64,000 nucleotides of DNA. Source: Acuticoccus yangtzensis. GTDB taxonomy: Bacteria; Pseudomonadota; Alphaproteobacteria; Rhizobiales; Amorphaceae. Under the pieces are notes generated by a model. That model did not search any database and was not told where the DNA came from. It worked only from the letters and a program-made list of their open reading frames with translations. Positions 40,562-43,193 of this stretch are shown here, one piece after another. Position 1 is the stretch's first letter. Every line of letters starts with the position of its first letter. The translations under genes and the position numbers were made by a program. The stretch covers positions 434,001 through 498,000 of the forward strand of contig NZ_MJUX01000002.1 of the NCBI RefSeq assembly GCF_001927245.1, given 5' to 3'.

Positions 40562-41383
40562 ATGAGGATTCTCGTCCTGGGGGACGTCGTCGGCCGCGTC
40601 GGTCGGCAGGCCGTCACGACCCACCTGCCCCGCCTCGTCGACCGCTGGAAGCTCGACTTCGTCGTCGTCAACGGCGAGAATGCGGCCGGCGGCTTCGGCA
40701 TCTCCGAGGAGATCGCCCAGTCGTTGATCGACGCGGGGGCCGACGCCATCACCACCGGCAACCACGTGTGGGACCAGCGCGAGGCGCTCGTCTTCATCGA
40801 GCGACAGCCGCGCATGTTGCGGCCGCTGAACTTCCCCCCCGGCACGCCGGGCCACGGGGCGGCGATGTTCACCGCACGCAGCGGCCAGCGCGTGCTCGTC
40901 GCCAACATCATGGGCCGCACCTTCATGGACCCGCTGGACGATCCTGTGCGCCCGCTGGAGGCCGCGCTCGACGTCCACACGCTGGGCTCGGAGGTGGACG
41001 CGGCGATCGTCGACATCCACGCCGAGGCGACGAGCGAGAAGCAGGCGCTGGGGCACCTGCTGGACGGGCGCGTGTCGCTGGTGGTGGGCACCCACACCCA
41101 TTGCCCGACCGCCGACCACCGCGTGCTGCCGGGCGGCACCGGCTACATCACCGACCTCGGCATGTGCGGCGCCTATGACGGCGTAATCGGCATGGACAAG
41201 GACGAGCCGATGCGCCGGTTCGTCGAGCGCACGCCCGGCCAGCGCATCACCCCGGCGACGGGTCCGGCCACCCTGTGCGGCGTCGCGATCGAGACGGACG
41301 ACCGCACCGGACTGGCGCTGTGGATCTCGGCGGTGCGTCTCGGCGGCGATCTCCACGAGGCCACCCCTTCGGCGTGGGCGTAA
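40562..41383 (+). CDS. YmdB-type (TIGR00282 family) metallophosphoesterase
   Basis: This 273-residue calcineurin-like enzyme is related to YmdB, a phosphodiesterase in Bacillus that affects biofilm and spore decisions. Metal motifs are LVLGDVVGRVGR near 4-15, VNGENAAGGFGI, TTGNHVWDQRE and GTHTHCPTADHRVL. The natural substrate in proteobacteria is uncertain; cyclic nucleotides have been proposed. An ATG at the start of a classical beta strand was chosen over upstream candidates in a 136-base gap. Confidence 0.92.
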   Translation: MRILVLGDVVGRVGRQAVTTHLPRLVDRWKLDFVVVNGENAAGGFGISEEIAQSLIDAGADAITTGNHVWDQREALVFIERQPRMLRPLNFPPGTPGHGAAMFTARSGQRVLVANIMGRTFMDPLDDPVRPLEAALDVHTLGSEVDAAIVDIHAEATSEKQALGHLLDGRVSLVVGTHTHCPTADHRVLPGGTGYITDLGMCGAYDGVIGMDKDEPMRRFVERTPGQRITPATGPATLCGVAIETDDRTGLALWISAVRLGGDLHEATPSAWA

Positions 41384-41822
41384 GCACCCTCGTCTGACTG
41401 CGCGCAAGGCGGCTCGCCCGGCGCCTTCGCACCGGCCGACCGGGCCGGACGCACCTTCCGGCGGGACCGATGCGCCTGCCGCGTCCCTGGGTCGCGCCCC
41501 CGCCGGGGCGTCGACCGGGGCGGCACCGATCCGCGCGGCGCCACGGATGGATGACGGGCGTCGCCGCGGGACTTTTTCTTCCCCTTCACCTCCCTAATTT
41601 CTTGGCAGACGGCGCAGTTTTGGCGGCGGCGACGGGCCCCGTCTACTGAACGCGAAACTCGCGCATTAGGCGGCACGCCTGCCATCACTACATGCGCACT
41701 GCACGGCTGCTTTGAGAACTGCCACCCTTCGCGTGTATTGGATATACTTTTAGGCGTTTACCTTAACAAACCCCTTCAATAACTGTTGATCTTATCAGCA
41801 CTCCCGCTGATGGAGATCAAAC
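41384..41822. other. Intergenic region upstream of the AHL synthase gene
   Basis: The first 270 bases are GC-rich without a recognisable gene. The last 130 (from about 41690) become AT-rich (43% G+C in 41761-41820) and hold likely control signals: a TATACT at 41743-41748, a TTGAGA at 41712-41717 with unsuitable spacing, and the large inverted repeat listed next. Confidence 0.45.
41786..41820 (+). promoter_or_regulatory. Inverted repeat enclosing the luxI ribosome-binding site
   Basis: TTGATC-TT-ATCAGC-ACTCCC-GCTGAT-GGA-GATCAA forms two stacked perfect 6-bp stems with a TT/GGA internal loop and a six-base apex. The Shine-Dalgarno GGAG (41812-41815) lies in the loop and outer stem, seven bases before the ATG. 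As RNA it would hide the ribosome-binding site; as DNA it could be a dimer operator. It does not look like a 20-bp lux box. Confidence 0.6.
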
Positions 41823-42470
41823 ATGTACTTCACCCTTGAATCCCACCAATTTGGCGCCTTTTCTCATCTGGTTGAGCAGATGTATGCGCTGCGTCATCGC
41901 GTGTTCTGCGAGCAGCTTCAGTGGGTTGATGCCGAAGGCAACCGCGAGCGGGACCAGTATGACGACTACAACCCCGTCTATCTCCTTCATACGGACGAGA
42001 ATGCAGAGTTTCTGTACGCTTCTGCCCGATTGATGCCGACTTCTGGTCCGACGCTGCTCACAGATGTTTTCGCGCAGAGCATTCCCGACGCGGGAATGAT
42101 TCAATCTCCATTTGTATGGGAGATCACCCGGTTGTGCCTGGATGACACGCTGTTACGCCAGCATCAGCCGGGCCAACGCGCGATCAACGTGCTGCGGATG
42201 ATGCTTTTGGCAGGGATGGAATTCGGTGCCCGGAACGGCGTCGAAACCTTCTTGTCGAACTTCGACGATGTCCGGTTGCGCATCTGGCGGCGCGCCGGGG
42301 CCCGGATCGACATCGTCGGCCAGGCCGAGGGCTTCAGCGTTCCGGTGATGCTGGGCCTCACCGAGGCCGGGCGCGATGCGCTCGAGGCCGTCCGCACCCA
42401 GCTCGGCCACCACGAGCGCGTCCTCAGCCGCGCCCCGCAGGCGCGCTTCCGGCCCGCCCGCGCGGCCTGA
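41823..42470 (+). CDS. Acyl-homoserine-lactone synthase (LuxI family)
   Basis: This 215-residue protein makes an AHL signal from S-adenosylmethionine and an acyl-carrier. Residues invariant in LuxI proteins are present: R24 and F28 in ALRHRVFCEQLQW, W34, D44 and D47/D48 in ERDQYDDYN, R69 in SARLMPTSGPTLL, and E100 and R103 in VWEITRLCLD. The C-terminus has a basic Pro/Ala extension beyond the fold. There is no luxR-type gene within the window, so the receptor is elsewhere or absent. The acyl chain cannot be predicted. Confidence 0.93.
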   Translation: MYFTLESHQFGAFSHLVEQMYALRHRVFCEQLQWVDAEGNRERDQYDDYNPVYLLHTDENAEFLYASARLMPTSGPTLLTDVFAQSIPDAGMIQSPFVWEITRLCLDDTLLRQHQPGQRAINVLRMMLLAGMEFGARNGVETFLSNFDDVRLRIWRRAGARIDIVGQAEGFSVPVMLGLTEAGRDALEAVRTQLGHHERVLSRAPQARFRPARAA

Positions 42471-42561
42471 CCCGCCTTGTGCCGGGGACGCCGATCATCC
42501 GCGCCCCCGGCACGGTGCGCACCTCGATGCGCCGTGTGACATGGCGGTCATCCGCCCAAGA

Positions 42562-42600
42562 AACAAAAAGCGCCCTGCCGGAGAGATCCGACGGGGCGCC
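42562..42600 (-). terminator. Rho-independent terminator after the peroxiredoxin gene
   Basis: On the minus strand GCGCCC and GGGCGC enclose a GC-rich interior and are followed by TTTTTG. It lies 54 bases past the peroxiredoxin stop, between it and the convergent luxI gene. Confidence 0.7.
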
Positions 42601-42653
42601 ACAAACCGCGAGGGGCGGTCGCCGGCGAAAACCGGCGGTAGAGGGTGGAGCGA

Positions 42654-43193
42654 TCAGGCCGCCTGCGCCTGCGACAGATGGGTCATCAGGTTTTCCGGGC
42701 TGGAGACGCCGTAGGGATCCTCGGGGCAATCGTCCATAAGGCCCGGCTCCTCGAACCAGGCTTCCACCACACCGTCGTTGACGATGGCGGCATAACGCCA
42801 TGAGCGATCGCCGAAGCCGAGATTCTTCTTCGAGACCAGCATGCCCATGCGGCGGGTGAACTCGCCCGATCCGTCCGGAATCATGGTGATGTTCTTGACG
42901 CCCTGCGACTCGGCCCACTTGTTCATGGTGAAGGCGTCGTTGACCGACAGGCAGTAGATCGCGTCGATGCCCTGCGCCTTGAAATCCTCGAACCCGTCGT
43001 CGAACCCCGGAAGCTGGAACGTCGAGCAGGTGGGCGTGAAGGCCCCCGGCAGCGCGAACAGGATCACGCGCTTGCCCGCGAAATAGTCCGCGGTCGTCAT
43101 GTCCTGCCAGCGAAACGGGTTCGGCCCGCCGACCTCTTCGTCCCGAACGCGGGTCCGGAAGGTGACGTTCGGCAGCTTGAAATTCGTCCTCAT
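42654..43193 (-). CDS. Peroxiredoxin (Prx5/AhpE-like, thiol peroxidase)
   Basis: This 179-residue peroxidase has its peroxidatic Cys at 56 in LPGAFTPTCSTFQLPGF, the Prx5 pattern. It reduces hydrogen and alkyl peroxides with thioredoxin or glutathione. No clear resolving Cys is seen in the C-terminal part, so it may use the 1-Cys mechanism. It stands alone, with a terminator after it. Confidence 0.92.
   Translation of the reverse strand: MRTNFKLPNVTFRTRVRDEEVGGPNPFRWQDMTTADYFAGKRVILFALPGAFTPTCSTFQLPGFDDGFEDFKAQGIDAIYCLSVNDAFTMNKWAESQGVKNITMIPDGSGEFTRRMGMLVSKKNLGFGDRSWRYAAIVNDGVVEAWFEEPGLMDDCPEDPYGVSSPENLMTHLSQAQAA

Follow-up and report, generated by a model that had tools for sequence, protein, structure and literature searches.

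The window, a stretch of 64,000 nucleotides from Acuticoccus yangtzensis, carries on its forward strand a gene for a luxI-type AHL synthase of 215 amino acids (41823–42470). The protein matches PF00765 with an E value of 2.9e-27 and 95.9 bits, vs. a gathering score of 24, and the first-pass annotation was thus right to see in the gene downstream of the hairpin described below a true AHL synthase. It is the sole AHL synthase found in the genome; a scan of the LuxI protein against the genome contigs returned one distant relative. A ymdB-like phosphoesterase gene (40562–41383, forward strand; PF13277, E 3.4e-100) lies upstream of luxI in the same direction, and loci L063 and L064 have the same neighbour. 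In three same-genus relatives ymdB and luxI are followed by luxR and yebC in convergent orientation. In the window genome this neighbourhood is broken between luxI and luxR (42470–42654); the ymdB-luxI pair stays in the window, and the orthologue of luxR, which shares 81% identity with its G005 counterpart, is found with yebC on another contig (G000:C26:272860-273243, L234).

The luxI leader contains, on the forward strand at 41786–41820, a hairpin that occludes the Shine-Dalgarno (SD) sequence. The sequence and the predicted fold both bear out the arms TTGATC/GATCAA and ATCAGC/GCTGAT that had been described from the letters. The outer left arm TTGATC (41786–41791) pairs with GATCAA (41815–41820), and the inner left arm ATCAGC (41794–41799) pairs with GCTGAT (41806–41811) across the loop ACTCCC (41800–41805). 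The SD sequence GGAG (41812–41815) indeed falls in the closed part, seven bases 5′ of the ATG at 41823. The two stems do stack; the internal loop proposed for the TT between the left arms (between 41791 and 41794) and the GGA that follows the inner right arm (41812–41814) is better read as one U-A pair, one U-G pair and a single bulged G, which makes the stem nearly continuous. The hairpin has about 14 pairs, with a few weaker ones on the outside, and belongs to the minimum-energy structure of the leader. The fold of the 121-nt leader has a z score of −2.87, with 3 of 200 shuffles equally good, and the SD-specific opening cost has a z score of 1.8. By itself, therefore, the window hairpin is suggestive and of modest significance; its weight comes from conservation in orthologues and from a luxI pattern that runs through the class. 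A switch controlled by an sRNA or a ligand had also been put forward as a possible role; a search of the window against Rfam families gave no match. In the computed structure of an upstream-started mRNA the SD sequence is paired, and opening the SD costs 7.5 kcal/mol in leaders of at least 36 nt and at most 2 kcal/mol in leaders of at most 26 nt.

The bulge and the U-G pair in the SD stem recall the geometry of ROSE and fourU elements, and an RNA thermometer, in which warming would open luxI translation, had been suggested for the hairpin. In the ViennaRNA prediction, however, the stem does not melt between 15 and 50 °C, the probability that the SD is unpaired being 0.25 at the lower and 0.27 at the upper temperature, and among related hairpins the opening cost reaches as much as 21 kcal/mol (L168, a hairpin of about 15 pairs). 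On these predictions a thermometer is highly unlikely.

Leaders of orthologous luxI genes were compared in 100 relatives. Two same-genus loci, L003 and L004, whose LuxI proteins are 77% and 74% identical to that of the window, retain the hairpin, with the arms TTCTCTGTCAGC/GCTGATGGAGGA in the former and AGCATT..ATCGGC/GCTGAT..AATGCT in the latter, where AGCATT/AATGCT replaces the outer stem. The loop has six nucleotides in all three orthologues and the inner right arm is unchanged among them; the substitutions in the inner left arm lead solely to G-U pairs. In the alignment of these three sequences, 91% of the cells are paired and three pairs are altered on both sides, so that the covariation for which a search in relatives had been proposed turned out to be present. 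Structures slid along the same three-sequence alignment score clearly worse, and shuffles reach its values in 33 of 500 cases. In a further, more diverged orthologue (L005/L065, 51% identity) the SD is also paired in a hairpin, though one of different sequence. The window, L003 and L004 also share an upstream ATG (41810–41812 in the window) in ATGGAG, which overlaps the SD; in L003 and L004 it lies 12 nt before the luxI ATG and in the luxI frame, in the window it is out of frame.

Distant luxI leaders likewise form SD-pairing hairpins from unrelated sequences, for example CATCCTCCTACC GCAA GGTAGGAGGGTG in L175; luxI loci were therefore collected across the order and the cost of opening the SD was computed. 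The median is 8.8 kcal/mol for 113 luxI leaders with a recognisable SD vs. 3.7 kcal/mol for 581 neighbouring genes with intergenic leaders in the same loci (p 7e-31). When the data are collapsed to families, 25 of the 29 have luxI above the controls (p 6e-7). The luxR genes of the same loci, at 3.9 kcal/mol, are indistinguishable from other genes, and luxI leaders are less GC-rich than the control leaders. Swapping arms between leaders destroys structure: the native pairing exceeds the chimaera in 91 of 100 cases across families and in 75 of 92 within families, and the left and right arms therefore evolve together. These data show that luxI mRNAs are selected for hiding the SD by means of hairpins unrelated in sequence. 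Chance, or a folding propensity common to leaders of GC-rich genomes, would fit the modest significance of the single sequence; since the neighbouring genes and luxR of the same loci lack the effect and the family-level p value is 6e-7, this explanation is very improbable. About 12% of luxI leaders have no upstream pairing of the SD. The median is 7.6 kcal/mol for 22 luxI leaders of other alphaproteobacterial orders and 1.7 kcal/mol for nine from outside the class, where strong hairpins are few; gammaproteobacterial luxI genes are mostly without the excess, and Enterobacterales-like loci are low. Four loci from outside the class (L217, L223, L224 and L226) do have strong SD-pairing hairpins with opening costs of 7–14 kcal/mol. 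In three genomes of one genus a traI-like luxI contains two in-frame TAG codons (L219, L220 and G385:C11:108427-108948), presumably an old shared pseudogene.

Many of the loci have dyads resembling lux or tra boxes some 59 to 76 nt upstream of the ATG, with the centre near −66, such as ACCTACGGGTTCCCGTAGGT (−61), TACTGGGAAATTTCCCAATA (−66) and ACCTGTCAGATTCGACAGGT (−69). Strong dyads (at least 8 matches) in the −70 to −61 bin occur in 13 of 113 luxI loci vs. 12 of 580 control genes. These separate boxes bear on another proposal of the first-pass annotation, namely that the structure could act as a DNA operator. An inverted repeat near a quorum-sensing gene would fit a lux-box-like dyad for a regulator. 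The arms covary rather than staying conserved, keep G-U pairs and are complementary to the SD in sequences that are otherwise unrelated; an operator therefore has very little probability. The hairpin was also considered as the lux box itself and rejected, since it is 35 nt long, has covarying arms and overlaps the SD, whereas the box is a conserved promoter dyad of 18–20 bp.

The position of the boxes matters for where the mRNA starts. The traI promoter of Agrobacterium belongs to class II, its box preceding the start by about 45 nt (PMC3907764). In Mesorhizobium traI the published start sites follow the box at a distance of 44 bp, which gives leaders of 21–26 nt; this is the only case for which the literature shows the short LuxR-type transcript. 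When the same distance was applied to 40 luxI loci taken for having, between −56 and −82, a dyad in which 7 or more positions match, a criterion loose enough that some of the boxes are probably false, the median leader was 23.5 nt. In these loci opening the SD costs 8.7 kcal/mol in the read-through mRNA and 3.1 kcal/mol in the mRNA that begins at box+44, which has no excess occlusion. When all luxI leaders are considered, no excess is seen for lengths up to 24 nt, and the full excess is reached at 42 nt. The missing excess is partly geometry, because a short leader has no room for the hairpin; what is informative is the position of the induced start, rather than the loss of excess in short leaders. 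A search for −10 hexamers at the place implied by box+44 found no enrichment (3.19 matches observed vs. 3.24 in shuffled sequences).

Plasmid traI leaders, including those of pTiC58 and pGV2260, have a tra box at −67, an expected start at −23 and the left arm just upstream of −23. The arms are TTCGCATGA/TCATGCGGA in pTiC58 and TCTCCGCA/TGCGGAGA in pGV2260, where the SD opening cost falls from 12.8 to 2.3. The plasmid traI alignment retains G-U pairs and contains only one two-sided pair change. In four loci of one genus (L149, L167, L169 and L174) a near-perfect dyad, AGGTCGGCCGTGCCGACCT, is conserved about 88–91 nt before luxI, 5′ of the SD hairpin; it may mark where luxR transcription ends or serve as a second operator.

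The window itself offers several candidate promoter elements, all on the forward strand. The conserved block CGTTTACC(T/A)AAC (41755–41767), a candidate regulator site, contains the short dyad GTTTA/TAAAC centred at −61.5 from the ATG, the distance at which lux boxes lie in other loci; adding 44 to the GTTTACC(T/A)AAC dyad places a candidate start near 41806, and mRNA from there would not include the left arm. As lux box candidates the window offers GTTTACCTAAAC at −61.5 and a second, weak dyad at about −85. TCAATAA (41776–41782), invariant among the orthologues, is an alternative candidate −10 element with a start at about 41788, inside the left arm. TATACT (41743–41748), part of a TATAYT block kept in the three orthologues, is a candidate −10 element with a start at about 41755 and a leader of about 68 nt that includes the entire hairpin.

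If the last of these were the main start, the hairpin would instead be a constitutive or regulated brake: every luxI mRNA would carry it, and AHL synthesis would be kept low or would be opened by an sRNA, an RNA-binding protein or ribosome traffic. The conservation of TATAYT is consistent with this, as are some groups with a dyad at a greater distance from the gene (L096 at −97, L087 at −79), in which the hairpin would sit in the LuxR-started mRNA too, and as is the control of S. meliloti sinI mRNA near the SD by the sRNA RcsR1 and RNase E, according to the text found for that report (PMC5977203). Most boxes, however, lie at −59 to −76 and imply leaders of about 23 nt, as measured in Mesorhizobium, and the loops are short, differ between families and show no conservation among them. 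We regard a general brake as a possible but rather doubtful explanation.

We propose that the luxI hairpin insulates the autoinduction loop at the level of translation, and assign this reading a probability of roughly 0.55. The hairpin would bury the SD and block translation of any luxI mRNA that starts 5′ of the left arm, whether by stray initiation or by read-through from a co-directional gene, which is luxR in many relatives and possibly ymdB in the window. The mRNA driven by an AHL-bound LuxR-type activator would start within or just after the left arm, would lack the hairpin and would be translated. The first-pass annotation had listed an mRNA start 3′ of the left arm as a refutation; such a start is likely to be the actual mode of action. 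What the computation itself shows is that the structure exists, is conserved, is specific to luxI and recurs; for the window genome, we infer that the start site would lie at this place and that translation would respond as described. A co-directional ORF lies upstream of 78 of 111 luxI genes at a median distance of about 100 nt, as far as noisy ORF calls allow, and the hairpins of such genes appear somewhat stronger than the rest (median 9.6 vs. 7.2, p 0.04), a weak difference given those calls, in which the window is misclassed. These two observations make insulation the likeliest reason for the hairpin. That alphaproteobacterial AHL synthase genes generally carry a fast-evolving RNA insulator, split by a LuxR-dependent start, has in our estimate about an even chance of being correct.

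Quorum sensing relies on very low expression of the synthase before induction. If the proposal is true, translation of the synthase is set by the promoter from which its mRNA originates, and the autoinduction loop is shielded from read-through noise. It would also explain how luxI stays silent though it often lies about 100 nt 3′ of a co-directional gene, probably luxR. Promoter fusions of luxI and synthetic circuits built on it would then read differently, and transcriptional fusions would miss the gate. The proposed insulator is directly testable in classical systems, e.g., traI.

Several known systems invite comparison. The transposase genes of IS10 and IS50 are protected from external promoters because read-through mRNA folds back over the ribosome site; unlike luxI, they are genes of mobile elements and have no activator-driven promoter. 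The Pseudomonas lasI and rhlA RNA thermometers are structured leaders of quorum-sensing genes as well, but they respond to temperature, whereas the window hairpin has no predicted melting. The leader of S. meliloti sinI, a rhizobial luxI, is 28 nt long. Translation and decay of the sinI mRNA are controlled by RcsR1 and RNase E, which act in trans on the leader, and the text found for that report describes no hairpin (PMC5977203). The structured 5′ UTR of P. chlororaphis phzX reduces expression of a quorum-controlled gene (PMC5815613); phzX is not a luxI gene, and no SD-specific hairpin is shown for it. In the literature we found no report of an insulator of this type for AHL synthases; the kind of mechanism is already known from gene e and I-TevI of phage T4. 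For T4 gene e, and also for soc, 49 and I-TevI, a hairpin sequesters the ribosome site of long mRNAs that start upstream, and the mRNA made from the gene-adjacent promoter, being without the 5′ arm, is open to translation (PMC3014915, PMC2988022). The proposed logic for luxI is the same, a ribosome site that is closed in upstream-started mRNA; in T4 it serves timing through phage late promoters, whereas in luxI it would be coupled to a LuxR-type promoter in AHL synthase genes of bacterial chromosomes and plasmids.
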